Below, in pieces: positions 1,330 to 26,169 of a stretch of 26,169 nt of DNA. Origin of the DNA: a virus. Where the stretch lies: positions 1 to 26,169 of IMG/VR virus record IMGVR_UViG_3300036045_000140. One strand, given 5' to 3'. Each line of letters begins with the position of its first letter. The stretch's first letter is position 1. Under the pieces are notes generated by a model. It saw only the letters and a list, made by a program, of their open reading frames with translations, did no database searches and was not told where the DNA came from. The translations under genes were made by a program, and so were the position numbers.

Positions 1330-2052
1330 TCACGGCGACACCCGCCCGTGCCGGGTGAAAGCTTCGTGCGTCAGTGGCCACCCGCTCTCGAGCGCTTGTT
1401 CGCACGCGCGCGCCGCAAGGTCGATCTCCCACAGCGGGTAGCTGACGAACTTCGCGTCGGGCTCGTGAACGCGCAGCGACAAGAACGCCATGAGCGACCG
1501 TGGATTGCACGTCACCCAGCAGCCAGAGTATATGCCGACCGGGAGGCAGTCGCGAGCCAGCCCGGGATCAACACCGAGCGCGAGGTTCTTCTCGTACGCC
1601 GTGTAAGCGAACGCGTACGACGCTCTCAGGTTGTGGCACAGCGCTTCGTAGGTGCGCTGGTCCTCGCAGCGCGTGAACTTCGGGCGTCCCGGCTTCCAGC
1701 CGTCGACCTTCATCATCGGTCGCTCGCGGTCAGGCAAGTAGAAGACCGGCTCCAGCTGTTTGTAGCGCCCGCTCTCCTCGTTGTACGAGAACCCGATCCG
1801 GTGCCGGTGCCACTCGCGCCACACGAAGACCGGGGCGCGGACGAAGAAAGTGACCGCAGAATGCTCGAAAGGCGTCCCGTGACGGTGTCGCATCAAGTAG
1901 TCGATGAGCCCGGTGTTGTCACTCGCCAGCGCAGGGTCGGCGAACGTCGCCGCGGCTACGCCGCTGACGCTGACCTTGGCCGCGGCGACGACCATGTGGT
2001 CGCCGCCCATGCTCTGGATGACAGACACGTCAATGTCACTCTTGAATTGCAT
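1330..2052 (-). CDS. thyX: Flavin-dependent thymidylate synthase ThyX
   Basis: A 240-residue protein, normal for ThyX. It carries the signature 'RHRIGFSYNEESGRY' (RHRxxSxNExSxRY), which binds FAD and dUMP, and 'NPRSLMAFLSLR' in the C-terminal half, typical of the family. ThyX methylates dUMP to dTMP using methylene-tetrahydrofolate and reduced flavin, and releases tetrahydrofolate rather than dihydrofolate. The ATG at 2050-2052 is preferred because GGGAG precedes it at good spacing. An in-frame TTG at 2068-2070 would add six residues but has no better ribosome site. The start overlaps the end of the DUF3310 gene by 17 bp, and DHFR lies one gene further upstream, so the three form a nucleotide operon. 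A second thymidylate-synthase-fold enzyme of a different family is encoded at 13007-13915. Confidence 0.95.
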   Translation of the reverse strand: MQFKSDIDVSVIQSMGGDHMVVAAAKVSVSGVAAATFADPALASDNTGLIDYLMRHRHGTPFEHSAVTFFVRAPVFVWREWHRHRIGFSYNEESGRYKQLEPVFYLPDRERPMMKVDGWKPGRPKFTRCEDQRTYEALCHNLRASYAFAYTAYEKNLALGVDPGLARDCLPVGIYSGCWVTCNPRSLMAFLSLRVHEPDAKFVSYPLWEIDLAARACEQALESGWPLTHEAFTRHGRVSP

Positions 2053-2251
2053 TCGCGTTCTCCCGTTCAATGAGACGGTTCAGGTACCACGCCGCTTTCC
2101 GCAAGTCCTCTACGCCGTTCTTGTGGCGGAAACGTGCCACGTACTTGACCACGTTCCCGTCGCAGAACCCGAGCCCCCACGCTTCTATCGCGTCGATCAC
2201 TTCTATCGGCCCGGCGTTATAGTGTGCCGGGTGGTGTACCGCGTCACTCAT
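2036..2251 (-). CDS. DUF3310 small phage protein
   Basis: A 71-residue protein matching DUF3310 over its whole length: 'HPAHYNAGPIEVIDAIEAWG', then 'GNVVKYVARFRHKNG' and 'EDLRKAAWYLNRLIE'. The family is widespread in tailed phages, usually beside nucleotide-metabolism or replication genes, and is often labelled as a nucleotide kinase-like protein, but no reaction is well established. The ATG at 2249-2251 has AGGTGAG just upstream. The gene starts 3 bp after the end of DHFR and overlaps thyX by 17 bp, so all three are probably translated from one message. Confidence 0.88.
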   Translation of the reverse strand: MSDAVHHPAHYNAGPIEVIDAIEAWGLGFCDGNVVKYVARFRHKNGVEDLRKAAWYLNRLIERENANAIQE

Positions 2252-2254
2252 CGC

Positions 2255-2791
2255 TCACCTCAGGTAGTAAGTATACACGCTGAACTCCGCGTTCTCCGAG
2301 GAGTGGATCAGCAACGTATCCGCGAGACCAGCGGGTTCTGGCATACGTACGTCGTCTGGACACCGCTCACTGACGTACTCGCCGTCTCGTATCACGCTGA
2401 GTCTGAGCCAGCCGGCCACTTTTCGCGCGAGCGCTTGTTCGTATACTTGTCGGCCGCCGCAGACGTAGACCCGGTCAGAGCCCGAGGCCGAGAGCGCGGT
2501 AGACACGGCCGAAACTAAGCTAGCGCGCGCCACGCGATGCGTCTCGCTGGGCACTGACGCTGGGTCGCGCGTCAAGACTATGGTAAAGCGTCCCGGCAAG
2601 TCTCCGACTAGTTCCCACGTCTTACGGCCCATCACTATGACTCCGCCAGACGTCAGCGCCTTGAAGTCTGTCATTTCCGCGCGACCAGCCCGCGTGTGTC
2701 GCCACGGCAAGTCGCCATTCGCGCGAGCGAGTGTCCCGTGCCTATCAACGCATGCTACTATCATGACGCGTGCTCGCTCCTCGCTCGTCAT
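2255..2791 (-). CDS. Dihydrofolate reductase
   Basis: A 178-residue DHFR of normal length. Visible landmarks are 'NGDLPWR' after the first strand (substrate and NADPH loop), 'VIVMGRKTWE' (cofactor-binding strand), 'IVLTRDP', and 'VYVCGGRQVYEQAL' with the conserved double Gly followed by the VYEQAL helix. It reduces dihydrofolate to tetrahydrofolate with NADPH. The first ATG has AGGAG five bases upstream; a later in-frame ATG at residue 10 sits closer to the usual DHFR start but has weaker spacing. It is first in a compact DHFR-DUF3310-ThyX set. ThyX does not make dihydrofolate, so the need for phage DHFR next to it is not obvious. Confidence 0.95.
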   Translation of the reverse strand: MTSEERARVMIVACVDRHGTLARANGDLPWRHTRAGRAEMTDFKALTSGGVIVMGRKTWELVGDLPGRFTIVLTRDPASVPSETHRVARASLVSAVSTALSASGSDRVYVCGGRQVYEQALARKVAGWLRLSVIRDGEYVSERCPDDVRMPEPAGLADTLLIHSSENAEFSVYTYYLR

Positions 2792-3240: not shown

Positions 3241-4086
3241 CTACGAGCCGGCGCGGGACGCCTCGAAACTCAGTTCCTCGCACACCACATCGGCGACGAA
3301 TCGCCAGAACTGCTGCCGCGCCACGCCGGCCTGCAGCAGCGTCGCGTCGGCTTGCTGCCGCGCCACGCAGGTATGCCGCAGCGCCACGCCGGCCTGCTGC
3401 AGCACCACGTCGGCCTGCTGCCACGCCACGCTGGCCTGCTGCCACTTCACGTAGTCCTGCCGCAGCGCTAGGTCGGCCTGCTGCCGCGCTATATCGGCCT
3501 GCCGCCGCGCTATATCGGCCTGCCGCCGCGCCATGCCGGCCTGCTGCCACGTCACGTAGTCCTGCCGCAGCGTCGCGCTGGCCTGCCGCCGCGCCGCGTC
3601 AGCCTGCCGCCACGCCGCCTGCCATTCCGCCTGTTGCGGATCGTCGCCAGCTGCGCGACGACGCCAGAGCGCCGCAACGACGCGCGCGACTTCCGCCACG
3701 CCAGGACGGATCGCGTCGGCCGCGAGCTTGTCGGCCAGTCGCGCCATCACGCGCGGCACAAACCGCGAGTAGTCCGCGCCGGCTCTGACGGCCCGCCAGA
3801 AACGCGGCGGCCATGCGGATCGCTTGACGCTCGGCAGTCCCTCGAAGACGTGATCCGCCAGCCACCACGCGAGTTCGGGCACTCCTGTCGCCTCCGCGAT
3901 CGCAGCGTGATCGGACGGCCGGATCGAGCGGTCCATCAGCCCCAGCCGCTGGCAGTCTTTTATTGAGCAACCGACGGCACAGCCCTTCGACGGCCCGGCG
4001 TCGTAATCGCCGGCGATGTATTCGTCCGCCGCCTGGTGGGCGTCGGCGCATTCGATCAGCTTCTCATGCAGTTCCGCAGTCAGCAT
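3241..4086 (-). CDS. Phage protein with conserved N-terminal domain and long heptad-repeat tail
   Basis: A 281-residue protein in two parts. Residues 1-165 resemble a phage-borne family I know only as hypothetical: 'ELHEKLIECADAH', 'GKGC/GCS'-like Cys pair ('SKGCAVGCS'), 'ATGVPELAWWLADHVFEGLP', 'FWRAVRAGADYSRFVPR', followed by a short helical segment. The tail then runs about 14 copies of a seven-residue unit such as 'ARRQADI' or 'AWQQADV', with Ala, Gln-Ala and a hydrophobic residue in fixed positions. The DNA repeats with a 21-bp period. Family members that I recall also end in Ala-rich repeats of variable length. The last 22 residues are non-repeat ('FWRFVADVVCEELSFEA...'). The ATG at 4084-4086 has AAGGAGG five bases upstream; a TTG just before it is rejected. 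Function unknown. Confidence 0.75.
   Translation of the reverse strand: MLTAELHEKLIECADAHQAADEYIAGDYDAGPSKGCAVGCSIKDCQRLGLMDRSIRPSDHAAIAEATGVPELAWWLADHVFEGLPSVKRSAWPPRFWRAVRAGADYSRFVPRVMARLADKLAADAIRPGVAEVARVVAALWRRRAAGDDPQQAEWQAAWRQADAARRQASATLRQDYVTWQQAGMARRQADIARRQADIARQQADLALRQDYVKWQQASVAWQQADVVLQQAGVALRHTCVARQQADATLLQAGVARQQFWRFVADVVCEELSFEASRAGS
3321..3614. repeat. 21-bp tandem repeat array inside the heptad-repeat gene
   Basis: About 14 degenerate copies of a 21-bp unit built around GGCCTGCTGC. Two neighbouring copies containing GCTATATCGGCCTGCCGC are identical. A module with CACGTAGTCCTGCCGC recurs at 3448 and 3553, 105 bp apart (five units), which points to segmental duplication as well as unit-by-unit expansion. 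Every change keeps the minus-strand reading frame. Confidence 0.85.
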
Positions 4087-4119
4087 CAAACCCTCCTTTC
4101 AAGGGTGAGTTTCGCGGTT

Positions 4120-10327: not shown

Positions 10328-12196
10328 TCAGAATCGCTCTTCGCGCTCCTTGGAAGCCGCGTGTAGCCAGCTGGTCTCAGACCAGCCGATAGACGTGCGG
10401 ACGGGCACGGTCAACGGACGAGAGGTAGCGTTCATCACTTCAACCGCGCGTCGACGCACGTGCTCGGCCCGCAACACGTCCAGGGGGGCGTAGGACAGGA
10501 CCTGGTCGTGGACACAAGCCATCTGCCGGAACTCTGGGACCTCGTCGTCTAACGCTACCATGCGCTCTTTCATCAAGTCGCCAGCGCTAGACTGGCAGAC
10601 CGTACTGAAAGCGGCAAACGCGGCGTGGGCTGGCAGATGCCGACGGCGCCCAAAGTGATTCCTGGTGTACCCGCGGCGCTTGCAAGCGGTCTCGGCAGCG
10701 CGCGCGGTTGGCTTCAGTTCAGGTAGCGTAGCGTGGTACTTGTCGTAGACTTCTAGCGCGCGACGTTCGCAAGCACGAGCTACTGCTAGCTGGACTTGGT
10801 CATCGGGTAGTCCAAGCGCCTTGACCTCGGCGATAGTCGCGCCGACGAGTTCTTCGTTGACCGACAGGACTTGTATCGTCTTCTTCTTGCCGGCTCGGTA
10901 GCCCATCATGAAGTTGATGGTCTTGGCAGGCTTGCGCTTGGTCGGCACCATGTCTGCCACCCAGTCGTGAAAGTCTGTCCACGGGTCCCGCTGGTAAGCT
11001 GCCACGCACGCTCGGTTGCCGATGTAGTGCACGATGTACCGGAACTCGATCTGCGAGAAGTCCATCGACACGATGCCCTCGCCGGGAGGCGGCTGGACTA
11101 GTTCTTTGGCGTCCTCGCTGAGCTGCTGCATGTTAGGCTCGCCGCAGCTCATGCGCCCGGTGCGGACGCACTGGTTGTAGGTCGGGTGCATGCGACCGTC
11201 GGACCCGATCATGCTCTCCCACTGCGACAAGAAAAGCGAGTTCAGCGTGTTTAGTCGACGGTATCTCAGCACCTTTTCGACTATCTGCTTCGGGGCTAGC
11301 GGGTGCGTGAGATACAGTTTCAACGCGTGCTTGTCAAAAGACGGGCTGGGCATGGCAGAGTCTGTGTACGCCAGTACGGGCAAGCCGTACTGCACGCACA
11401 GCACGTCATAGCAGTCCTCGTTCACGTGCGGGCGGAAAGCTCGTCCTGCTAACCGCTCGAGCTCCTCATCGATCTTGACCATCTCAATGAGCGTTTGTAG
11501 CTGCTTCACCCGGAGCTTGACCGGGTCCACGAACACGCCCTCGCGCTCTATGCGGTGCAGCAGGCTCGTGACGCGCCGCTCAGTGGCCCAGACGCCCGCA
11601 GACTCGGCAGGGACTTCGCGTTCCAGGTACTCGGCCAGCTTTCGGTTCGTGACGACGTCCGCGCACGCATAATCGGCGAGTACGTCAAGCGGTACGCGTC
11701 CGTAGTCCTTGTTCCGTTCTAGCCACGGGACGAGTTCCCGGTAGAACGCGCTGATGTCAACGCCGAGCCAGTCCTTGGCCAGCTCGTCTAGACCGTAGCC
11801 CGGGTGTAGGCGGTCGCTGTTTACCAGTTTGCTAGCCGTGAGCGTGCATCGCAGTTCCAGCTCTCGACGCGGTACGACGCTGAGGTCGTTGCCTGACACG
11901 TGTGCGTCATACTTGACGTTGTGGTTGGTCCAGACTTTAGTCGCGCGCAGCAAGTCACGCCACCACCCGGTGACTAGCAAGCGCTTCGGCACGAACCACG
12001 TAGGTGAGTCGTGACCAAACGCTACCGCGGCGCCTATCACTTGGCAGTCGCGCCAGGGATTCACAGATGACTTGCGCGGGTCTCCGGAACTCGTCTCGAA
12101 GTCCGCGAAGAGCTCCGGCACCCCGCCAGCCGGGATGCCGGGTAGCTCTTCCTCGGACTCGAGCAGCAGTCCTCCGCTGCCGCCCAATCGTATCAT
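10328..12196 (-). CDS. Family A DNA polymerase with 3'-5' exonuclease
   Basis: A 622-residue replicative polymerase. The exonuclease domain has 'DFET' (Asp32, Glu34), 'NVKYDAH' (Asp97) and 'DYACAD' (Asp180), so proofreading residues are intact. The polymerase domain has 'TGRMSCGEPNMQQL' (fingers/palm), motif A 'MDFSQIEFR' (Asp379), motif B from Arg421 through Lys425 to Tyr433, 'QSSAGDLMK', and motif C 'VHDQV' (Asp564). Motif C is normally HDE; here the Glu is Gln565, while the metal-binding Asp is kept. It copies phage DNA together with the primase-helicase upstream. The ATG overlaps the kinase stop as ATGA. There is no 5'-nuclease domain, as in T7-type polymerases. Confidence 0.95.
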   Translation of the reverse strand: MIRLGGSGGLLLESEEELPGIPAGGVPELFADFETSSGDPRKSSVNPWRDCQVIGAAVAFGHDSPTWFVPKRLLVTGWWRDLLRATKVWTNHNVKYDAHVSGNDLSVVPRRELELRCTLTASKLVNSDRLHPGYGLDELAKDWLGVDISAFYRELVPWLERNKDYGRVPLDVLADYACADVVTNRKLAEYLEREVPAESAGVWATERRVTSLLHRIEREGVFVDPVKLRVKQLQTLIEMVKIDEELERLAGRAFRPHVNEDCYDVLCVQYGLPVLAYTDSAMPSPSFDKHALKLYLTHPLAPKQIVEKVLRYRRLNTLNSLFLSQWESMIGSDGRMHPTYNQCVRTGRMSCGEPNMQQLSEDAKELVQPPPGEGIVSMDFSQIEFRYIVHYIGNRACVAAYQRDPWTDFHDWVADMVPTKRKPAKTINFMMGYRAGKKKTIQVLSVNEELVGATIAEVKALGLPDDQVQLAVARACERRALEVYDKYHATLPELKPTARAAETACKRRGYTRNHFGRRRHLPAHAAFAAFSTVCQSSAGDLMKERMVALDDEVPEFRQMACVHDQVLSYAPLDVLRAEHVRRRAVEVMNATSRPLTVPVRTSIGWSETSWLHAASKEREERF

Positions 12197-12795
12197 TCGA
12201 AGCGCCTCCCCTCGCGCGAAGCGCTGATCTGTAGCTCGTCCCAGCTAGAGATGTGCGAGAGGTACCTCTCGACCACGGGGCCAGCTAGCTGCGTCGGGCT
12301 CAGCCCACAGTCAGTATGCACTAGCTCGTCCACGCGAACTGGCGGGTACAGTTTCCCGCGGCACGTCACGTACTCTCCGGCCGCGATCTTTTGGAACGTG
12401 GCGTGGTGCTCACGTACTCGTTCCAGTGGGTACATTTGCGTGGATGCGCTCGTCATGTATCGCGCGACCAGCTCCTCGTCGCGTATGGCGCAGACTACTA
12501 CGTAGGCTCCCGCGCGATACAAGATCGCCGCGTCGGTCATCCGGTATCGCAAAGGGTCGAGCTTCTCACACGGGTACGTGTCATTGCAACGATACACGAG
12601 GCCGGACAGGTGGAACCGGTCGCGTACCAGCGACGGCGCGGACAAGTCCAAGTACCCGGAGTAGTAATCAAAGTCTGCTGGCACGCGGCTCAGGTGCTGG
12701 TAGACGTGCGCCATGCCTGTTCGGGACAGCAAGTCTTGGCATGCCTTAGCGAGCGAAGTCTTGCCCGCGCAATCACCGCCTTCTATCACTAGCAT
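12193..12795 (-). CDS. Thymidylate-kinase-like dNMP kinase
   Basis: A 200-residue P-loop protein: 'IEGGDCAGKTSL' with Lys12 is the Walker A motif in the form used by thymidylate kinases. 'RDRFHLSGLVY' with Asp59-Arg60 matches their DR(Y/F)xxS motif, which positions the nucleotide. The usual reaction is phosphorylation of a deoxynucleoside monophosphate with ATP. Here it sits between the ThyA-fold enzyme and the DNA polymerase, so it may act on dTMP or on a modified dCMP, as T4 gp1 does; that choice is inference. GAGGAG precedes the ATG. It overlaps the polymerase gene by four bases. Confidence 0.8.
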   Translation of the reverse strand: MLVIEGGDCAGKTSLAKACQDLLSRTGMAHVYQHLSRVPADFDYYSGYLDLSAPSLVRDRFHLSGLVYRCNDTYPCEKLDPLRYRMTDAAILYRAGAYVVVCAIRDEELVARYMTSASTQMYPLERVREHHATFQKIAAGEYVTCRGKLYPPVRVDELVHTDCGLSPTQLAGPVVERYLSHISSWDELQISASREGRRFE

Positions 12796-12842
12796 GTGAG
12801 AGTCTCCTCTAGAGTGGGAAGGGAAGGGCTCGCGAGAGTGAT

Positions 12843-13016
12843 CTACGTCGGCACGTCAACCCACTCCACTAAGTCTCCCGAGAAGTCGCACATCTCGAAC
12901 TTTCCTTCGTGCTTGATGATGTTCACGACTCCAGCGCGTCCCTCTTCCATGTGCGTGGGGGTCAACTCTTCGACGCACGTGGCTTGTCCGTCTAAACAAC
13001 TGACGATCAGGTACAT
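12843..13016 (-). CDS. Small 57-residue protein in the nucleotide operon
   Basis: Not recognised. It starts 'MYLIVSCLDGQATCVEEL' and ends 'MCDFSGDLVEWVDVPT', with a strand-rich, acidic composition that suggests a small folded domain. The ATG at 13014-13016 has GGAGAG upstream and overlaps the ThyA-fold gene stop by 10 bp; an in-frame ATG 12 bases earlier is a weaker choice. Its place between the hydroxymethylase-like and kinase genes hints at an accessory role, which is only inference. Confidence 0.62.
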   Translation of the reverse strand: MYLIVSCLDGQATCVEELTPTHMEEGRAGVVNIIKHEGKFEMCDFSGDLVEWVDVPT

Positions 13017-13915
13017 AGCACTCTCCATGCCGGCGGTCCTATCGGTGCTACCGTGCCTCCGGCGTGCCAACGGCACGTCTTCACGAGGTCGCGCACCATG
13101 TTCTCCTCGTCGCCGCCAGGTTTCGACAAGGTATAACGATCCCACGATAGCGCAGCTGTGCGGAGATCGAGCAGGGTATCACGTGTCGGTTTCCAAGGGC
13201 ACGGCCGTAGCGAAGGACGGTCCGGGGCGCCAAGAGCTTCGATTGCGCGGGCTAGGTGTCGCTCGTACAGGTGCAACGTACCCGCATGGCGGTGGTAACC
13301 CCCGAGTTCGAGGCCCAGTTCCCACGCGACTACTCGCATGAAGCACGTCGATACGAAGACGTCGTTGGGCAGGCCTACCCACGCGTCGCTGGCACGCGCA
13401 GTCTCTATCATGTGTAACTTGTCGTCTCGCACGAAGAACTGCCAGTTCAAAGTACACGGACACAATACGTTCTCCGTGGCCTCCACTAGGTCAAGACGCG
13501 TGTCAAAGCACTGCACGCACGCCCTACTTGAGTTTGAGTGCTGTCCCAGCCTCGCAATAGCCGCGGGTAAAGCTCCCATGATGCGCGGTCCGTAAGCCCA
13601 GCGCGCGTACGGCTTGCCGTCGCAATACCGCGCTTCGAAGCTCGGGGCAAACCTGGCTATCAAGTGCGTGTCAGTGCATCCGAGAGCAAGCCACAGCACT
13701 TCAGCGCAAGCGTAACCCGGGTTCAGGCGCCTACGTTCGTTCGTGAGCCACGACTGCCCGCCTCCGGCTTGCATGTCAATCGTAAACGAATGACTGAGCA
13801 GTTCTCGCGCTATCTCACCATCTCGCAGGACTCGCGCTGAGGACGGCTTGCGGCTAAGTAAGGCGCGCAAGATCTCTCGCCACGCGTGATCAAGACTATC
13901 GTAGGCATCGTGCAT
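13007..13915 (-). CDS. ThyA-fold pyrimidine methylase/hydroxymethylase, likely dCMP-specific
   Basis: A 302-residue protein of the thymidylate synthase/dCMP hydroxymethylase family. 'NPGYACAEVLWLALG' holds the conserved Glu72, 'SSRACVQCFD' fits the phosphate-binding region, 'LCPCTLNWQFFV' has the catalytic Cys154, 'RASDAWVGLPND' is the specificity loop, and 'HLY' at 215-217 contacts the sugar. Aligned to E. coli ThyA from Cys146, no gap is needed, and ThyA Asn177 falls on Asp185. Asp at this position is what T4 dCMP hydroxymethylase has (Asp179); it selects cytosine over uracil. Transfer of a hydroxymethyl group to dCMP is therefore the best reading; ordinary dTMP synthesis is less likely, given ThyX elsewhere. 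GGAGA precedes the ATG. Flanked by MazG-like and kinase genes. Confidence 0.78.
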   Translation of the reverse strand: MHDAYDSLDHAWREILRALLSRKPSSARVLRDGEIARELLSHSFTIDMQAGGGQSWLTNERRRLNPGYACAEVLWLALGCTDTHLIARFAPSFEARYCDGKPYARWAYGPRIMGALPAAIARLGQHSNSSRACVQCFDTRLDLVEATENVLCPCTLNWQFFVRDDKLHMIETARASDAWVGLPNDVFVSTCFMRVVAWELGLELGGYHRHAGTLHLYERHLARAIEALGAPDRPSLRPCPWKPTRDTLLDLRTAALSWDRYTLSKPGGDEENMVRDLVKTCRWHAGGTVAPIGPPAWRVLCT

Positions 13916-13945
13916 GCGCAGGTTCTCCGCAGTGACGGGTCTAGG

Positions 13946-14482
13946 CTAGCAAAATCTTGCGTTCTGGTATTCGTGCCACACGCGCAGTAAATCTGGCGGG
14001 GTGTACGCGGGGCCTTTGTCAGAGACACGGGACCCGTCAGGCGCGCCAGGAACTACCGGGCGCTTGGTCATGTTACTCCGGTGTACCTCGGCAAAGCCTT
14101 CGCCAACTGGCATCGCGAACTGGACGCCCGTGCCGAGTAAAACGTACAGCCCGTCGCAAACCGCGTCGAGGGTTTCCACATCGTCATATGCCGCCAGTGC
14201 CGCGAACAGCTCGGCTACGCACTCGCTCATCACCAACGCGGCGCGCAACGCTCGGTCATCACGAGTCATCCGATATATTGTCATCAGCTTGTGATACTGT
14301 TGACTCGCGACACCCGAGACTTCTTGAAGGTACTTTGACACCGTCGATTCGTGCTGCGCCGTAGCCGTGTGTTCAGACAGCCGGCGTGGAGCCGGCACAC
14401 GCGCTATCTCGGTCATGAATTCCGTTACCGCGGCTTGCGCCTCGTTCACGGACATGGCTAGTGATATGCTCGCGGTGCTCAT
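13946..14482 (-). CDS. MazG/PRA-PH-type nucleotide pyrophosphohydrolase
   Basis: A 178-residue all-alpha protein. 'ALVMSECVAELFAAL' with Glu87 and Glu91, then 'ETLDAVCDGLYVLLG' with Asp106 and Asp110, form the metal-binding ExxxE...DxxxD pattern of this superfamily. 'FAEVHRSNMTKRP' and 'KGPAYTPPDL' are typical of phosphoribosyl-ATP-pyrophosphohydrolase-like phage proteins. Such enzymes cut nucleoside triphosphates to monophosphates. In this operon it could remove dCTP and supply dCMP, a job done by the unrelated T4 gp56; that is inference. The ATG overlaps the primase-helicase stop as TGATG with GAGGAG upstream. The first 60 residues are extra and unassigned. Confidence 0.78.
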   Translation of the reverse strand: MSTASISLAMSVNEAQAAVTEFMTEIARVPAPRRLSEHTATAQHESTVSKYLQEVSGVASQQYHKLMTIYRMTRDDRALRAALVMSECVAELFAALAAYDDVETLDAVCDGLYVLLGTGVQFAMPVGEGFAEVHRSNMTKRPVVPGAPDGSRVSDKGPAYTPPDLLRVWHEYQNARFC

Positions 14483-17325
14483 CAAAACTTCTCCTCTAGA
14501 GACTGGCGCGCGTGCGCCGGGACTGGAGCCAGACTCAGGTTCTTGAGCCACTGGACGAACTCCGGGGACTTGTGGTACCCGCGGTCACCGCGCTTGTTCG
14601 AGCGGCGCAGCGCTCCTTTGCGGACTAGCAGGCCGAGGAAACGCTGCGCGTCTGCACGCTCTCCGCCGAGCCAGTCTTGCACGTCTACTAAGTCTATCGA
14701 ATCGGCATACAACAAGCTCTCGCGTATCTCAGCTGCGTGCGCGTAGCTCTCGAGCTCGCGCTTCAAGACGTCCGGGTCTTTCAAGACCACTGATCGCCTG
14801 ACTGCCTCGCTGTAGAGCGCGTAACCGAAAGACGGCGACCCGTACGTTAGGCGCAGCTTCTCTACCACGTACTGGACGTGGCACTGACGTATTAGCAGGG
14901 TAGCCTCGCTCTGACCCGTCGAGAACGTGCGCGCAGCTAGCGCTGCAGACAGCCGGCTGAGTTTGTGCCGGGTGCTGCCTTTGTCTATGAGCGGTATCGA
15001 GTCGTCAAATTCTCGACACAGCTGAGTCGCCGAGTCACTTATCAACTCACGCGCGGCGTCTTCAAAGACGATCTCGGTCTCAGCTCGCGTCCAAGCCCAC
15101 AGCACCAAGGCGTGGCACAGCTCGCTAGTGTACTTATGCGGCACCTTAGGAGGGTCGCGAACTAGCTTGTTCAGGACACCCTCGTCCAGGTCCCCTGCCG
15201 TGACGATCAGCGCGGCGTCAAAGCGTCGCACGTCCTCAGGAGCGCCTACCAGGTCTCGTACGGCTTCTATCCCGAACGCGTAAGAGGACATGTTCCGGTC
15301 GCCGCGCGCGTTAGAAGTAGCCAAGAGCCTCGTGCGCGCGCTAGTACGCCGCTTCTCGATCTTGGGTATCTCCGCGCGTCCGCTGGACCGCATGTCTGTG
15401 AGACGCGACAAGACCTCGGTACTGGCCCCTTTCAGCTCTTCGAGCCACACTAACCGTCGGTCATGCGTAGGTATGACCCCCCACGACACGTACCAGGTGT
15501 TGCCCATCTGCTTGAGACCTCCGAGCAAGCCTGCGACAGTCGCGTTCTTGCAGTCGACTTTCTCGCCTAGCAAGTAGTGACCCATCAAGCCAGCCACGGT
15601 CTCAGACTTGCCTTGCGAGGAGTCTCCGAGTATCAACACCTCGGACCACCCCTTTGTGACCTTGTCGTCAACGACAATCAGCAGCGGCGAGTGCCACGCT
15701 AAGTCCGCGAACAAGTGCAGGTCTCTGCGCAAGTAAATGCGCGTCACGTTGTACTCGAAGTCTGCGTATATATCGTCAAGCCGCTCGCGCAGTCCTTCTA
15801 CGGTCCAGGAGTCGGGACGGAACACGCGCAGCTTGTGGGTCTCCCGCGGCACGTGAGTGGTCAGGGCGTCGTGAGAGGCGCGCGTCTTAGACACCAACAG
15901 CGTGGCTTGTTGGGTCTGCGGGTGCGGGTACAGTCGGCCGATCACCTCGTACGTGGCGTTTAGTTCGAGGTCGCACTCGACCCCGATAGCCGCTAGCATC
16001 GTCCGGTCCGTGTCCCGGTTAGTTATCGCAAGGCTTGGGTTGAATCGGACGTCTTCGGCGGAGTAGTGGTCGGTGACGTCAAAAGTCACGCCTTTGCATT
16101 GCTTGGGCACCCCGACAGCGTGCCGCACCGCTGCGTCAAGTGCGTTAGCTGGGACGGCTATCATCTCGAGTATCGCCGGGGATTCCGCGGGCACGTAGAA
16201 CACGCGATCATCGCGCGGGTAGACAGAGCACAGTGCGCATACTTCTCCCTGGTCTTTCTGGCATTGCGTAACTACGCGCTTAGGTACCAGGAACGAGCGG
16301 TCTGCGCACGCCGCGACGACCCCGCTGAACCTCATGCGCTTACCAACGTTAGCAGAACGCACGGTCTCGCTAAACCCGACCGCGAGCGGCTCGTCATCTT
16401 CGGGTGACAGGCGCGCTCGCACCGCAGGTACCCATTGCGGGGCGTCACGAACTACGGGCCACAGGTCCTGACCTTCGCGCCCAACGAAATCATTGACATC
16501 GCCTTTCGGGTACTTGTCCGGGTCTAGCGGTAAGTCGACGAGGCCTGTCCAGGACAGCGCGGGGTGCAGCGCGGCGCACAGTCTCTGCGCTGCCTCTCGT
16601 CCCGCCGGGTCGATGTCTAGACACACCCACGCGCGCTTGCCCTTGAACTGGTCAGTCAATTTCCGGCTCCAGGCGCCCTCGCCGCCGGTCACGCACACCG
16701 CGCCTATCCCGTGAGGATTGAGCTGTCTAGCTGCGACTATCGCCTTCATCTCACCGCCGCAGATCACGACTCCGTCGTACTGCATCTGCTCGACCGGGTA
16801 GAGTCGCATGACGCTGCCACGCCCGCGCGCGTTCTTCATCTTCTGGGAGCCTGGCGCGCCTGGCAGGTACCTGCGCACGTTCACGTACAACCCGGCCGCG
16901 TTTTTGACGGGTATGGTGACACGCTGGTCATCTGCGCCTAGTCGGTAGTGCCGTATCTCCTCGTCTGTGACTCCGCGAACGTAAAGCTCTTTGAGCAGGT
17001 GCGGGTGCGCCCATATGGCCGCGTGCCACCTCTCGATCACCTCGGGTTCTATCGTCTTGACTTGCTCGAGGCCGTAACGCTTCTCGAGGTCCGCATACAC
17101 GACCGCGCGCGTGGTCTTCAGCGCCGCAGCCATGAACGACAGGAAGTCCCCGGACTGTCCGCAGCCCGCGGCAAAGCATTTGAACGAGAACTTCTGCGTA
17201 TTCACTGAGCATGACGGGCTCTCGTCGTCGTGAAACGGGCACCGGCACTTTACCGTCTCCTCGTTGGCGGGTTGGTACGCCCAACCCATCCTCTCGAGTT
17301 CAGCGAGTACGGATACTATCCCCAC
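14482..17325 (-). CDS. Primase fused to an MCM-like AAA+ helicase
   Basis: A 947-residue fusion. Residues 27-60 are a CHC2 zinc finger (Cys29, His32, Cys50, Cys55). Residues 184-281 are a Toprim domain with Glu192 ('GGEMKA') and 'CLDIDPAG' (Asp237, Asp239), so an RNA primase of DnaG type. Residues 325-500 hold a second Cys cluster (355-366) and strand-rich segments, resembling an OB/zinc region. Residues 545-710 form an AAA+ ATPase: Walker A 'GDSSQGKS' (Lys573), Walker B 'RLVWLEE' (Glu629, Glu630), sensor 'LLATSN' and an Arg finger at 'VRRFD'. The layout of the last part is MCM-like, not DnaB-like. The C-terminus ends in a likely winged helix. It starts at a GTG with GAGG upstream. Confidence 0.82.
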   Translation of the reverse strand: MGIVSVLAELERMGWAYQPANEETVKCRCPFHDDESPSCSVNTQKFSFKCFAAGCGQSGDFLSFMAAALKTTRAVVYADLEKRYGLEQVKTIEPEVIERWHAAIWAHPHLLKELYVRGVTDEEIRHYRLGADDQRVTIPVKNAAGLYVNVRRYLPGAPGSQKMKNARGRGSVMRLYPVEQMQYDGVVICGGEMKAIVAARQLNPHGIGAVCVTGGEGAWSRKLTDQFKGKRAWVCLDIDPAGREAAQRLCAALHPALSWTGLVDLPLDPDKYPKGDVNDFVGREGQDLWPVVRDAPQWVPAVRARLSPEDDEPLAVGFSETVRSANVGKRMRFSGVVAACADRSFLVPKRVVTQCQKDQGEVCALCSVYPRDDRVFYVPAESPAILEMIAVPANALDAAVRHAVGVPKQCKGVTFDVTDHYSAEDVRFNPSLAITNRDTDRTMLAAIGVECDLELNATYEVIGRLYPHPQTQQATLLVSKTRASHDALTTHVPRETHKLRVFRPDSWTVEGLRERLDDIYADFEYNVTRIYLRRDLHLFADLAWHSPLLIVVDDKVTKGWSEVLILGDSSQGKSETVAGLMGHYLLGEKVDCKNATVAGLLGGLKQMGNTWYVSWGVIPTHDRRLVWLEELKGASTEVLSRLTDMRSSGRAEIPKIEKRRTSARTRLLATSNARGDRNMSSYAFGIEAVRDLVGAPEDVRRFDAALIVTAGDLDEGVLNKLVRDPPKVPHKYTSELCHALVLWAWTRAETEIVFEDAARELISDSATQLCREFDDSIPLIDKGSTRHKLSRLSAALAARTFSTGQSEATLLIRQCHVQYVVEKLRLTYGSPSFGYALYSEAVRRSVVLKDPDVLKRELESYAHAAEIRESLLYADSIDLVDVQDWLGGERADAQRFLGLLVRKGALRRSNKRGDRGYHKSPEFVQWLKNLSLAPVPAHARQSLEEKF

Positions 17326-21586: not shown

Positions 21587-22498
21587 TTAGTCATCTTCGC
21601 GACGAGCAGGAAAGTACGCGGTTACCGTCTCTATGAGCGCGCGTGACGCGTGCTCGGACCACTCTAACCACCCGCCGGGCGCGATGACTACGTCTCTAGA
21701 AGGGTCGTAGTCATGCGCTTTGATGTACCCCCACCTCTTACGGTAATCGCGGTCTTTGACAGACCCGTGAAACCAGTGAACTAGCGAGCCTTCCACGTAC
21801 CCGAATTCCCCGGTCATCCTCGCGCGCGCTTGATGAGTCCACCGTTCCCAGTGCGCGCGTGTCGCGCTATTGAGCTGGCTATCATGCCACTCGCGGAGTG
21901 GGCGTCCGGTGAAACCCGGAGTCATGAGCGTGTCTCCGCTACCTGTCGCCATGTGCGCATACAGCCCGACTTCTCGTAGCCAGTCCGCTCTCGCTGCCCA
22001 GGCAAACCCCGGGTGACTACGCGTGAAATCGTTCCAGCGTGAGTCTCTCGTCGACCAGTGCCGCCCGCAAGAGCTAATTGCAACGCTACCCAGCTCAGAC
22101 TCCGCATCAGCCCAGTGCGCCTGACCGAACAGCTGAGCCACGCAACTGCGAGATTCTAGTTCTTCGCACGCGCGTTCAACCCAGCGAGGGTTCAGGAACT
22201 GGACATCCGCGTCCACCCACGCCACGTACTTCGTCTCACGCGGTACCATCTCTCGCACCACCGCGTTCAGCAGGGCCTCCTTCTGCCAGAGTAGCGCGCG
22301 CGACCTTAGCGCGCGTAACCGTAGGACGCGCCCGCCTAAGACGTACTCGTCGTCGTCATAAGCGAGCTCCACCGGGTAGAACGCGACGCCAGCGCGTGCC
22401 ATGTCTGTGGTGAACCTCTGGAAGTGTTCCAGCGGCCTGACGTACCCGCAAGGGTTGAAGTGACAGGCTATTACCGCTAAGTCACTGGCCCGTCGCAT
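21587..22498 (-). CDS. Glycosyltransferase-like protein with DxD motif
   Basis: A 303-residue protein with a GT-A-type layout. 'LAVIACHFNPCGY' is the first strand, 'LWQKEALLNAVVREM' a helix often seen in this group, and 'YVAWVDADVQFLNPRW' holds the DxD metal/nucleotide-sugar motif (Asp96, Asp98). Then follow 'PGFAWAARADWLREVGLY' and 'HGSVKDRDYRKRW', common in phage glycosyltransferases. It would transfer a sugar from a nucleotide donor; the acceptor (virion protein, glycan or DNA) is unknown. GGAGG lies upstream of the ATG, and it overlaps the preceding gene by 17 bp. It is the last gene of the glycan cluster. Confidence 0.75.
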   Translation of the reverse strand: MRRASDLAVIACHFNPCGYVRPLEHFQRFTTDMARAGVAFYPVELAYDDDEYVLGGRVLRLRALRSRALLWQKEALLNAVVREMVPRETKYVAWVDADVQFLNPRWVERACEELESRSCVAQLFGQAHWADAESELGSVAISSCGRHWSTRDSRWNDFTRSHPGFAWAARADWLREVGLYAHMATGSGDTLMTPGFTGRPLREWHDSQLNSATRAHWERWTHQARARMTGEFGYVEGSLVHWFHGSVKDRDYRKRWGYIKAHDYDPSRDVVIAPGGWLEWSEHASRALIETVTAYFPARREDD

Positions 22499-22856
22499 TG
22501 AGTCCCTCCTCCGCCTGCGCGGATAACAACTCGAGGTATGGCTTCGTCATCTCATCGATAGCCTCGCGCCCGTTAGCGCGATACGCAATCGCATCGCTTC
22601 GCATCATCTCATGAATTGACGAGTATGACTGACCCAGCTGCAAATACGAGTTCTGGGTCCGACCCCAGCCCCAGCTGAGACACCGGACCCAGCGTCCGTC
22701 TGCTCGGCGTACCGCGCGCGTGAACGGCTCTCCGGAGCTCTCCCGGATCGCTGGTACGCTGACAACCTCGCCAAACCCGAGTTCGCGTAACCACGCGTTG
22801 ACGTGCTGAGCCCCGAACTCGTGCCCTACAAATGATAGAGTGGTATACGCGGTCAT
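22482..22856 (-). CDS. Hypothetical 124-residue protein in the glycan cluster
   Basis: Not recognised. It begins with strand-helix alternation ('TTLSFVGHEFGAQHVNAWLRELGFGEVVSVPAIRES') and has a Trp/Tyr-rich middle ('RWVRCLSWGWGRTQNSYLQLGQ') and a helical acidic end. The ATG overlaps the oxygenase stop as ATGA, and the gene overlaps the next by 17 bp, so it is firmly part of the operon. A role in sugar modification is suggested only by position. Confidence 0.6.
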   Translation of the reverse strand: MTAYTTLSFVGHEFGAQHVNAWLRELGFGEVVSVPAIRESSGEPFTRAVRRADGRWVRCLSWGWGRTQNSYLQLGQSYSSIHEMMRSDAIAYRANGREAIDEMTKPYLELLSAQAEEGLNATGQ

Positions 22857-23575
22857 TGTGCTCGGTCTTTCCGCCAGGCTTCTTTGGCAGGGTCAGGCGT
22901 CTCGTCACGTGTCGCTACGAATAGGGCGCGCGGACGCTTAGCCACGCTCAGTATCTCCGGCTCCCACCAGTATACTGCTAGCGAGTTCCTGGGCTTGCGA
23001 CTCTCAGACACGCTGTGATAAGACACGTCTCCACACTCGAACGCCACGAGACGATTAGCCCGCGGAAACACCTCAATCGCCGGAGTTGACAGGTCAGGAC
23101 GCCAGAACCTCAGTGCTCCGCCGTCTGCCGGCACGAAATCATCAAAAAACAAGATGACGTTCACTGCGCGGCGAAACCCTGTACGCGGGTGTCGATCGCA
23201 GTCCAAGTGCGCGTCAAGAAAACCGCCGCACGGAGTGTGGTGCATGCCCGCTCCATGCGCGCCTGGGTCTGTAACCAGACCTGGCCCGCAGAACGCGTCT
23301 AGCCGGCGGGAGAGCGTCAAGCAGGCCGGAGGCAAGCTGGAAGCCTTAGCCCACTTGCGCTCGCCGGGAGAATCGTATCGTACCCAATCCGGCGCGTACT
23401 CGAGAGCGGCGGAAAACTCGTCTCGGGCGGCGACAATGAGTGCGGCTTCGAAGACTCTATCGGCGACCAACCAGGGGAATGGACTGCGGCCCTCCAGTAT
23501 TCGAACGCCGGGATCAACGCGTGTTTCCAGTATGCCTCGTCGTATGGATTCCCGCAGTTGTCCAAGAACAGACAT
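22853..23575 (-). CDS. 2-oxoglutarate/Fe(II)-dependent oxygenase
   Basis: A 240-residue enzyme of the prolyl-4-hydroxylase-like 2OG-Fe(II) family. The iron ligands are His123 and Asp125 in 'DAHLDCD' and His187 in 'SYHSV'; Arg196 in 'RNSLAVYWW' would bind 2-oxoglutarate. 'VNVILFFDDFVPADGGALRFW' is the typical core between them. Such enzymes hydroxylate proteins, small molecules or nucleic acids; the target is unknown. The ATG at 23573-23575 has AGGAG five bases upstream. The first 30 residues lie before the recognisable domain and overlap the upstream gene, which continues in another frame as far as 23317. Confidence 0.85.
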   Translation of the reverse strand: MSVLGQLRESIRRGILETRVDPGVRILEGRSPFPWLVADRVFEAALIVAARDEFSAALEYAPDWVRYDSPGERKWAKASSLPPACLTLSRRLDAFCGPGLVTDPGAHGAGMHHTPCGGFLDAHLDCDRHPRTGFRRAVNVILFFDDFVPADGGALRFWRPDLSTPAIEVFPRANRLVAFECGDVSYHSVSESRKPRNSLAVYWWEPEILSVAKRPRALFVATRDETPDPAKEAWRKDRAQ

Positions 23576-24147
23576 GGGCTCTCCTGCCTAGTGAAAAGAC
23601 GTCCTGGCCATGATTCGCTTCCCCAGCCGTGTTTATCTACTTTTTGCCACGGTCGCGTTTGCGCTATCGCGTTGTCAAACCAGTAATAAGTGCCCGCGTA
23701 GTGCCACGGCACCTTCAGGCCCTCGTACCGTTTGAGGGAACCAACTATCGGGTACTCGGCCAGCGCGATGTCGACCAGCCCGGGGTAGTCTAGCAAGACC
23801 GTAGACATGACGTCACACCACCACTGACACACGCTCTCTGGAGGGTGCGTGCACCCCTTGCAGTGACACGCGAACGTGTGGCCCGGCTCCCGGATCACTT
23901 GCTCTAGCTGCCACGAGAACGACTGCACTTCCCGCAGCCTGGCGTTGTTAGCGAAGACCGCGTACCGCACGGTCGCGTCTCCGAACGCTTCTCTCACCGT
24001 GTCCGCGTGATCTGTCGTGCTGTCTTGTGCTATCGCTACGGCTTTCACCCCGTCAAAGAGGTGCCACCTCGCTTTGAAGTGCTGTACGGCACGTCTCCAC
24101 GTCCCGTACTGCCGGCGCGGGTAGACGTGGCAGATAAAGTGGTTCAC
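23317..24147 (-). CDS. Glycosyltransferase-like protein with long overlap into the oxygenase gene
   Basis: A 276-residue reading frame. 'NHFICHVYPRRQYGTWRRAV', 'KAVAIAQDSTTD', 'HTFACHCKGCTHPPE', 'WHYAGTYYWFDN' and 'WGSESWPGRLF' follow a pattern I recall from uncharacterised proteins in phage and bacterial glycosyltransferase clusters. The recognisable family seems to end near residue 220 ('FEYWRA'). The last 56 residues are Ser/Pro-rich and read over the oxygenase gene in another frame, so they are probably not constrained. The GTG at 24145-24147 overlaps the methyltransferase stop as GTGA, with GAGGTAA upstream; an in-frame start at 24210 is less likely. Sugar transfer is inferred from family resemblance and neighbours. 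Confidence 0.62.
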   Translation of the reverse strand: MNHFICHVYPRRQYGTWRRAVQHFKARWHLFDGVKAVAIAQDSTTDHADTVREAFGDATVRYAVFANNARLREVQSFSWQLEQVIREPGHTFACHCKGCTHPPESVCQWWCDVMSTVLLDYPGLVDIALAEYPIVGSLKRYEGLKVPWHYAGTYYWFDNAIAQTRPWQKVDKHGWGSESWPGRLFTRQESPCLFLDNCGNPYDEAYWKHALIPAFEYWRAAVHSPGWSPIESSKPHSLSPPETSFPPLSSTRRIGYDTILPASASGLRLPACLRPA

Positions 24148-24833
24148 CTCGTGTTTACCTCTCGTCGGCAGGTTATGACTTGCCCGTGCGGCCACATGCC
24201 CGCGTGACACACTCGCAGGTCAAGCGCGCGCAGCACCTCGACCAAGGCCACGTGAGGCACCAGGAACAGGTGCGAGTCTTGGTAGCAGATGCGGTCCAGA
24301 CACGGGGCGGGCAGCGGAGTCTGTACTTGTAACAACCCCCCGCGACATACCGCGCGCGCAGCTTCCGCGAGCAAGCCTTTCCAGTCCTCGACGTGTTCTA
24401 TGACTTCGCGCAGCATCACGCACCCGAACTTGCGCGAGCCAAACAAGCTCGCCTCGAACTTGGCGGCCACGATTACTTGCGGGCCCGCCGAGGCCATGGA
24501 CACGTCAAATCCGTGCGCGTCATATCCTCTGGCGCGCATGCCCGTCATCGCCGCGCCTACGCACGAACCGATGTCTAAGAACGTGCGAGGCATGAGCGCG
24601 TCCAAGTACAACTCTAGCAGGTCTAGGTTGTACCGGACGTCTTCGACTAGGTCAGCGCAACCGCTGACGAGATGTTTGTGCAAGGCGTCTCCTGCGTATA
24701 ACTCTTCGGGGTACTCCACGTCGTTAGTATCACCCCCGCACCGGAGACACCTCTGCCACGTGCCTTCCGGTACGAATGCTAGCCGGACCGCGTACTCTGA
24801 CGTAGCTTCGCATACTCGGCATTTACTACGCAT
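24144..24833 (-). CDS. SAM-dependent methyltransferase with N-terminal zinc motif
   Basis: A 229-residue class I methyltransferase. The N-terminus has 'CRVC' and, about 25 residues on, 'CLRC', a CxxC pair likely to bind zinc. 'TFLDIGSCVGAAMTGMRARG' is motif I for S-adenosylmethionine, 'AHGFDVS' the acidic loop, and 'CVMLREVIEHVED' the motif common to methyltransferases of type 11/23 in sugar clusters; 'GGLLQVQTP' follows. The acceptor is probably a sugar or nucleotide-sugar, judged from neighbours. The ATG at 24831-24833 has AGGGAGG six bases upstream; a GTG one codon earlier is a weaker start. It overlaps the GT4 gene by eight bases. Confidence 0.82.
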   Translation of the reverse strand: MRSKCRVCEATSEYAVRLAFVPEGTWQRCLRCGGDTNDVEYPEELYAGDALHKHLVSGCADLVEDVRYNLDLLELYLDALMPRTFLDIGSCVGAAMTGMRARGYDAHGFDVSMASAGPQVIVAAKFEASLFGSRKFGCVMLREVIEHVEDWKGLLAEAARAVCRGGLLQVQTPLPAPCLDRICYQDSHLFLVPHVALVEVLRALDLRVCHAGMWPHGQVITCRREVNTR

Positions 24834-26169
24834 CACACACCTCCCTGAGGAACTCTGACCACTTCCTGCCGTGCGCTGCCGCAGACAGCTCTTCCCAAGC
24901 GAACTGTCGCGCGCGTCGCGTGACTTCCGAGTCCCGGCCCTTTGAGAGCAGCGTCGTGATCTTGGCAGCCGTGACCTCGTCTGGGTCTGTCAGGTTGATG
25001 CGCTCGACGACGGGTCCGACTCGCGCTTCTACCTCGGGTATCCCACCCACTGGAGTCGCGGCTACCGGTAACCCTGCCGCCCACGCTTCTGCTATGGCCA
25101 GGCTGAAACCTTCCGAGGGGCTCGGCATCACCAGGCAATCCAGCGCCCCGTAGTAGTCCCCGATACAGTCCGGGGGGTCTACGAACCGGCAGGCTGAGGG
25201 TTTCGCGGGCTCGAACTCGAACCCCGTCATGGCCCAACTCGAGCCTACAAACACCGGCACGCCCCTGTGAACTAACCGGGCCACGCGCTCCACTAGCCCT
25301 GGGTTCTTCTCGCGCGCTAACCGCCCGACAAACCCTATGGCGTGCTGGCCGGGAGACAAGCCTAGCTCGGCGCGGACAGTGTCACGCGAGCGGCTAGGAG
25401 TGATCCGGTCGAATTCTACCGGGTTATGTATCACGCGGCACTCGTGACGTACCGCTAAAGGCCACGTAGCTAGCGCGGCTTGGCTGACCGCGACGTAATG
25501 GCTAGTCACTGGCAAGCTTGCCGTCACAACGTCAGCAGTCCAGCGACAGCACCCTTGCGCCACTACTACGAGCGGGCCTGTGAAAGACGGAGGTATGAAA
25601 TTCACGTACGCAGCCGTGCCCCACGTCACGAGGACGTCGCTTTGCGCAGCCACGCGTTCCACGGCTTCTTGATCCGTCGAATGGCACACTATGTTGTGAC
25701 GCGCGTACCGGCCGTGTCCGAGGTTCTGGTGCCCCGAGTACACGGTACAGTACCTCGCGGCCTCTTCGCACATCACGTCGTCACTGGCATTCGGATAGAT
25801 GAGAGCTATGCCCGACGGTCGGATTCCCGGCGACAAGAATTTCAGCAAGCTGAGCATCCACCGCTCTGCCCCGCCAGGATGGCACAGCGACGGCGTGATG
25901 AATCCCACTCGTAGCGCGCGCCCCGTTACCCGCGGCGCAACTGTCACTCGCGCTTTGCGGTCTGTGCACGTCAAGCAATTCGCGCGCGTGGGTTCGCCCT
26001 TGCCGACCGTGCATTCCCCGTGCTTCTCGCAGGCGAAAACCTTCAGTCGAGTGCGGTTACCCCCGCACGTGACGCAAGTAGACTCGGAGCCAGTCGGCTC
26101 TCCGCGGTACACGCACGGGGGCACTTGCTTGGGAGGCCCAGCGGCCGGAACCGCTTGGCCTCCCAAGCA
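24826..26169 (-). CDS. GT4-type glycosyltransferase with N-terminal zinc-knuckle region (5' end cut)
   Basis: The frame is open to the window edge, so the start is probably missing; a TTG at 26164-26166 is the only internal candidate near the edge. The first 75 visible residues contain 'CVTCGG', 'CEKHGECT' and 'CLTCTD', a Cys-rich pattern shared by many phage glycosyltransferases. Then comes a two-domain GT-B enzyme: 'VGFITPSLCHPGGAERWML' starts the acceptor domain, 'IHNPVEFD' and 'IGFVGRLAREKNPGL' start the donor domain, and 'PSPSEGFSLAIAEAWAAGLPVAATPVGGIPE' holds the retaining EX7E motif of GT4. It transfers a sugar from a nucleotide donor. It is the first gene of the visible glycan operon. 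Confidence 0.85.
   Translation of the reverse strand, partial: CLGGQAVPAAGPPKQVPPCVYRGEPTGSESTCVTCGGNRTRLKVFACEKHGECTVGKGEPTRANCLTCTDRKARVTVAPRVTGRALRVGFITPSLCHPGGAERWMLSLLKFLSPGIRPSGIALIYPNASDDVMCEEAARYCTVYSGHQNLGHGRYARHNIVCHSTDQEAVERVAAQSDVLVTWGTAAYVNFIPPSFTGPLVVVAQGCCRWTADVVTASLPVTSHYVAVSQAALATWPLAVRHECRVIHNPVEFDRITPSRSRDTVRAELGLSPGQHAIGFVGRLAREKNPGLVERVARLVHRGVPVFVGSSWAMTGFEFEPAKPSACRFVDPPDCIGDYYGALDCLVMPSPSEGFSLAIAEAWAAGLPVAATPVGGIPEVEARVGPVVERINLTDPDEVTAAKITTLLSKGRDSEVTRRARQFAWEELSAAAHGRKWSEFLREVCDA
26126..26169. repeat. 44-bp hairpin ending at the last base of the window
   Basis: TGCTTGGGAGGCC (26126-26138) pairs perfectly with GGCCTCCCAAGCA (26157-26169). After one mismatched pair the stem continues with five more base pairs, closing on a 6-base loop. 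It lies inside the glycosyltransferase frame and encodes a Gly/Pro/Ala-rich stretch. Because one arm ends exactly at the window edge, a fold-back or assembly breakpoint is a real possibility. Confidence 0.8.

Follow-up and report, generated by a model that had tools for sequence, protein, structure and literature searches.

A probable phage cytosine-nucleotide modification cassette whose ThyA-fold enzyme lacks the hydroxymethylase signature and may form a different base

We describe a run of phage genes that probably forms a cassette for the modification of cytosine nucleotides, judging from its gene content and residues. Its central enzyme, a protein of the ThyA fold, combines a cytosine-type aspartate with a leucine at the position of the signature aspartate of dCMP hydroxymethylases. 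The window, which is the whole stretch of DNA that was analysed, is an entire IMG/VR fragment of 26,169 bases, with every gene treated below on its minus strand. All functions given below are predictions from residues, folds and gene content. A first-pass annotation had read the run as a possible operon for 5-hydroxymethylcytosine synthesis. The cytosine modification cassette coupled to replication genes, a set resembling that known from MetaGPA, was borne out, but the hydroxymethyl-dCMP product was not, and the residues suggest that the base in the phage DNA may be other than 5-hydroxymethylcytosine.

The gene run and its surroundings

In the order of transcription, the run comprises a primase-helicase (14482..17325), a MazG/PRA-PH-type nucleotide pyrophosphohydrolase of about 178 aa (13946..14482), the ThyA-fold enzyme of 302 aa (13007..13915), a small ORF of 57 aa (12843..13016), a P-loop nucleotide kinase (12193..12795) and a family A DNA polymerase (10328..12196). 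The genes are tightly coupled by short or 4-base overlaps or nearly touching ends, and most are preceded by a Shine-Dalgarno-like leader. The span of the first-pass annotation, 12193-14482, is bounded by the stop codon of the kinase and the start codon of MazG, and the five genes named in it were all found in the run.

The hydrolase matches PF01503 (E 2.9e-8) and starts with an ATG behind an AGGAG leader. The ThyA-fold enzyme matches PF00303 (E 3.3e-13), and the polymerase, with a 3'-5' exonuclease-like N-terminus, matches PF00476 (E 2.5e-38). For the small ORF, which has a GGAG leader, neither a family match nor a known relative was found. The kinase, with a GGDCAGKTS P-loop and a DRFH motif, stays under the Pfam cut-off by itself (E 0.016), but thymidylate kinase is matched by 25 of 35 homologues, and the folds nearest to its AlphaFold model (pLDDT 93.8) are 2axp/3kb2 (YorR) and thymidylate kinases. 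The MCM-like helicase of the earlier annotation could be upheld in part: the primase-helicase has a CHC2 zinc finger (PF01807), Toprim matches and an AAA/MCM-like ATPase, but the latter is only the C-terminal part of this protein, and its MCM match is sub-threshold (E 0.03). A frameshift or pseudogene was ruled out for the ThyA-fold enzyme, whose 302 codons are open without an internal stop and follow a normal leader.

A separate small operon contains ThyX, a flavin-dependent thymidylate synthase (1330..2070; RHR(x)nS-type motif, RHRIGFSYNEESGR; PF02511 E 3.2e-37), a dihydrofolate reductase (DHFR, 2255..2791; PF00186, 65.9 bits, over the cut-off), a DUF3310-like ORF, an SNF2-type helicase and a PF14743 ligase. 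Elsewhere in the window, a protein with a long stretch of RRQADIARQQADLALRQ-like heptad repeats is encoded at 3241-4089, and a weak match to the uracil-DNA-glycosylase superfamily (E 0.007) lies at 525-1277. A cluster beside the replication genes (21587-26166) encodes a GT4 glycosyltransferase, a methyltransferase, a 2OG-Fe(II) oxygenase and other, unassigned proteins; the oxygenase and two of the latter, at 21587-22498 and 23317-24210, have relatives in the same place in the related locus L092 (38-43%).

Conservation of the cassette among related phages

Scans of viral contigs placed the enzyme in 80 loci and the primase-helicase, 35-55% identical, in 62. The gene order is identical in dozens of IMG/VR phages, and since these include many independent contigs, the run is not due to chance. 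The same recurrence, together with the deposited genome MW202657, which has this order and in which the enzyme is annotated as 'pyrimidine hmase', also means that the gene set is not new. MazG, enzyme and kinase were found together in 26 of the 52 loci with both primase-helicase and polymerase, and all three were absent in 13. Fisher tests of co-occurrence gave p values of 3e-6 for enzyme and kinase and 1e-4 for enzyme and MazG, which are optimistic because related contigs were counted. The cassette is gained or lost nearly en bloc among relatives. Judging from their residues, most relatives of the window enzyme look like true dCMP hydroxymethylases.

In environmental phage DNA, a combination of PF00303, PF01503 and a deaminase has been linked to cytosine modification (PMC8670742), which makes the cassette one of a known kind. 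As in the TS-PRA-PH-deaminase set of modified phage contigs from that work (MetaGPA), PF00303, PF01503 and a PF14743 ligase occur on one contig. Unlike that set, the window fragment has no dCMP deaminase, present in 33 of the 41 records tested, and no carbamoyltransferase, while it does have ThyX and DHFR.

In such a cassette, the MazG-type hydrolase would convert dCTP to dCMP, and the ThyA-fold enzyme, with a preference for cytosine suggested by Asp185, would alter C5 of dCMP. The kinase would then begin re-phosphorylation, and the polymerase would incorporate the modified deoxycytidylate. The earlier proposal that a MazG-type enzyme stands in for T4 gp56 is supported, as is the presence of a kinase of thymidylate-kinase/YorR type.

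Active-site residues of the ThyA-fold enzyme

The best solved match of the enzyme is the CMP hydroxymethylase MilA, both by sequence (E 7e-22) and by fold (TM about 0.78, model pLDDT 91). Residues were compared across 89 different relatives, including T4 gp42, SPO1 gp29 and E. coli thymidylate synthase (EcTS), whose numbering we use. E58, Y94, C146, R166, D169, D177, H207 and Y209 are all kept. The catalytic cysteine is Cys154 (EcTS 146), and Asp185 corresponds to Asn177 of EcTS, confirming the cytosine-type residue of the first-pass annotation. Fold, catalytic residues and Asp177 are therefore those expected of a phage dCMP hydroxymethylase, and the fold, the cysteine and Asp177 are shared with T4 gp42 and with the phage relatives in loci L002, L004, L013 and L092.

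The enzyme has five active-site departures, at four of which its residue was seen in none of the 89 relatives. Two residues before the catalytic tyrosine, at EcTS 92, glycine is found in 83/89 and Trp106 in the window enzyme. Arginine at EcTS 126 (89/89), methionine at EcTS 165 (83/89) and serine at EcTS 167 (88/89) are replaced by Ser130, Ala173 and Ala175, respectively. At EcTS 143, three residues before the catalytic cysteine (position -3), 85 of the 89 have aspartate, and the Leu151 of the window enzyme recurs only in E. coli TS. Leucine at -3 combined with Asp177 is confined to the window enzyme among the 89, and a DNA pattern covering CGN arginine codons only detected no sister with the same Leu/Asp motif spacing in 2.9 million viral contigs. 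Phage enzymes with Ala167 were found, but they have Asn, Asp or Arg at -3; three of them (L157, L164, L189) carry Asn143 with Ala167 and Asp177. Six divergent phage TS-fold proteins (L165, L167, L168, L173, L177, L182) with Arg at -3, RAxD and mostly Phe209 possibly have a separate activity.

The roles of the altered positions are known from related enzymes. In T4 gp42, Asp145 (EcTS 143) binds and activates the water that becomes the hydroxyl group, and it holds Ser94, which lies two residues before the catalytic tyrosine; D145N makes no 5-hydroxymethyl-dCMP, S94N blocks activity, and Asp145, Ser94 and Tyr96 were named as the hydroxymethylation signature (PMC6400193). In E. coli TS, Leu143 supports Trp83, so that solvent is restricted in the active site (PMC6400193). 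Lys133 and Ala176 of MilA correspond to EcTS 126 and 167, and reverting both shifts the preference from CMP to dCMP (PMC5175136). The changes in the window enzyme therefore hit two physically coupled pairs, a product pair and a phosphate/ribose pair.

The claim that the enzyme makes hydroxymethyl-dCMP is contradicted by these residues: the signature aspartate is Leu151, against the rule of Asp or Glu at -3 (PMC6400193), Trp106 occupies the place of its Ser94/Gly partner, and the phosphate/ribose end differs at two residues (PMC6400193, PMC5175136). Trp106 in place of Ser or Thr is in itself a weak indicator, as glycine is the common residue in the relatives. Since leucine at -3 is the residue of the methylating TS, where it restricts solvent together with Trp83, the most likely product is 5-methyl-dCMP. 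We tentatively favour the reading that a former hydroxymethylase now methylates dCMP, giving 5-methylcytosine as in Xp12. The water-activating pair (Asp with Ser/Gly) of a dCMP hydroxymethylase ancestor would have been replaced by Leu151 and Trp106, the by-product dihydrofolate would be recycled by the phage DHFR, and ThyX, encoded elsewhere in the window, would be the source of dTMP.

The combination of Asp177 with a non-acidic residue at -3 is that of a dCMP C5-methylase, and a precedent exists in the TS Asn177Asp mutant, which has Leu143 and Asp177 and forms 5-methyl-dCMP according to work cited in PMC8670742. The window enzyme would be its natural counterpart, but for the absence of Trp80 and Trp83. 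These tryptophans have roles in hydride transfer and water exclusion in TS, and their positions are taken by Phe and probably Arg in the window enzyme. Trp106 sits elsewhere, and we infer that it may have taken over their role.

DHFR and ThyX as clues

ThyX synthesizes dTMP without a ThyA fold. Its presence in the window leaves the ThyA-fold enzyme available for a different task and makes a dTMP role for it unlikely. If the enzyme were a conventional thymidylate synthase with dUMP as its substrate, Leu151, which is the TS residue, would be explained, but the enzyme has Asp177 and Thr147 instead of Asn and His and is nested among cytosine-type enzymes. We regard this reading as highly improbable, and a plain TS role was rejected on Asp177 and the separate ThyX.

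Methyl transfer by TS-fold enzymes yields dihydrofolate and requires DHFR, whereas hydroxymethylation produces tetrahydrofolate and has no need of DHFR (PMC6400193). In contrast to the window, none of the 65 records with an Asp143 enzyme was found to contain DHFR. Because PF00186 alone overlooks some diverged phage DHFRs, this absence was rechecked with two DHFR proteins in 49 of the 65 records, with only two chance-level matches. Of the 14 records in the Asn143/Trp80 (Xp12-type) branch, which are not independent as they belong to one clade, 12 have DHFR adjoining the enzyme. Xp12, in which 5-methylcytosine replaces all cytosine (PMC9206674, PMC7653180), is itself (MT664984) outside the phage collection, and the branch is represented by its relatives. 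The DHFR of the window belongs to the operon of ThyX, some 10 kb away from the ThyA-fold enzyme, and so may serve other folate needs, and the contigs of the three phage enzymes with Asn143, Ala167 and Asp177 have none. As an independent clue to methylation, the presence of DHFR is suggestive. ThyX and DHFR share one operon (1330-2791), although ThyX should not need DHFR.

Descent and relation to named enzymes

The tree nests the window enzyme in the hydroxymethylase branch and not with Xp12/DLP4, so that methylation would be convergent. This position inside the hydroxymethylase clade led us to reject horizontal acquisition of the enzyme from a different family. Close Asp-type relatives have the same operon neighbours as the window enzyme; compared with the T4 gp42 type, the signature Asp is Leu, Ser94/Gly is Trp, and R126, M165 and S167 are Ser, Ala and Ala.

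This nesting among Asp-type relatives that share the operon also fits an enzyme that is still a dCMP hydroxymethylase, in which another residue would activate the water and 5-hydroxymethylcytosine would be present in the phage DNA. Asp185 and Thr155 (EcTS 147), both tied to modified-cytosine DNA, are kept, position 80 has Phe in place of Trp, as in other hydroxymethylases, and the nearest solved structure is that of MilA. Continued hydroxymethylation is nevertheless rather unlikely, as the defining aspartate and its partner are Leu and Trp, D145N of T4 gp42 is dead and S94N blocks activity, and Leu with Asp177 occurs in no other of the 89 sequences.

The enzymes of the Xp12 type, from the Bradleyvirinae DLP4, DoCa5, Mallos and A1432, kin of the 5-methylcytosine phage Xp12, resemble the window enzyme in having Asp177 without an aspartate at -3. 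Their genomes contain DHFR like the window, and a MazG-type enzyme is found in DLP4 and AXL1. Unlike the window enzyme, they carry Asn at -3, a Pro that follows the cysteine, and Trp80, they form a separate branch of the tree, and their gene order is TS-deaminase-DHFR.

MilA (5b6d, 5jnh), from mildiomycin biosynthesis, shares with the window enzyme Asp177 and the alanine at the Ser167 position, which is its ribose-preference residue. This alanine, with Ser130 in place of the phosphate arginine, could point to another reaction or substrate, such as CMP or another cytosine nucleotide. Flavin-dependent C5 chemistry is a variant of the same idea, as the dCMP hydroxylase of phage HY126 (PDB 9iqu, 9iqc) ranks with the best matches by both sequence and fold; the literature searched yielded no paper on this hydroxylase or on arabinosyl-hydroxycytosine. 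Either form is quite improbable. The Lys and the -3 Asp of MilA are Ser and Leu in the window enzyme, positions -3, 169 and 209 are Glu, Asn and Phe in the HY126 enzyme but Leu, Asp and Tyr in the window enzyme, and Ala167 also occurs in other phage enzymes, so that alanine alone is no proof of CMP use.

Divergence of the cassette and a missing neighbour

When primase identity is matched, identity to the relatives averages 31.7% for the window enzyme, compared to 37.6% (SD 5.3) for the relatives among themselves. MazG and the kinase trend likewise toward excess divergence, but the polymerase does not. The EExxE...D/ExxD metal motif of MazG reads SE..E and D...D in the window; the first Glu is Ser (E109S in the numbering of the 201-aa ORF), where 47 of 48 relatives have E or D.

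In the nearest relatives (L013, L092, L142), MazG and the enzyme are separated by a C5-methylase-like gene (PF00145). This gene is present in 16 of 37 non-redundant loci, and no trace of it was detected in the window. The protein of about 420 aa (L004:8746-9987, L013:8737-10005, L092:13648-14991, L142:13360-14733 and others; PF00145 E 3.6e-14) has altered motifs, with NPRCT for PPCQ and ESV for ENV. It could act on hydroxymethylcytosine instead of methylating, and relatives may use it downstream of 5-hydroxymethylcytosine.

These observations would also be expected of a decaying cassette, with a (nearly) inactive enzyme and ordinary cytosine in the phage. Five departures fall within one active site, MazG has lost a conserved Glu, the cassette diverges faster than primase and polymerase, the adjacent C5-methylase-like gene is gone, and the whole cassette is absent from 13 of the 52 related loci. 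We consider decay unlikely because ORF and leader are intact despite a long branch (1.33 changes per site), the core catalytic residues and kinase motifs are kept, and the changes are concentrated on two pairs of residues that are known determinants of product and substrate.

Discussion

Methylation of dCMP is favoured by Leu151, at a position that is Asp in most relatives, Leu in TS and Asn in Xp12-type enzymes, by the inactivity of D145N and the TS Asn177Asp precedent, by DHFR and ThyX in the window, and by an intact ORF with its core residues nested in the hydroxymethylase clade. The over-divergence of the cassette but not the polymerase and the loss of the C5-methylase-like partner point the same way. 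Against it stand the missing Trp80 and Trp83, of which Xp12-type enzymes, with Asn rather than Leu, retain Trp80, the distant DHFR and its absence beside the three Asn/Asp177 enzymes, Ser130 and Ala175, which methylation does not explain, and the single sequence of the Leu/Asp type. It is conceivable, if somewhat doubtful, that, independently of Xp12, a hydroxymethylase became a dCMP methylase or another cytosine-nucleotide enzyme by coupled changes of Asp-Gly/Ser to Leu-Trp and of Arg-Ser to Ser-Ala, with loss of its C5-methylase-like partner.

TS-fold enzymes set which modified base enters phage DNA, and their annotation leans mostly on residue 177. The window enzyme illustrates that a second mechanistically understood position, at -3 of the cysteine, can contradict the call made from residue 177, and it offers a natural test of the determinants of hydroxymethyl versus methyl transfer. 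The conserved C5-methylase-like neighbour in relatives hints at a further putative step of cytosine hypermodification. If the window enzyme methylates, it would represent an independent origin of nucleotide-level 5-methylcytosine in phages.
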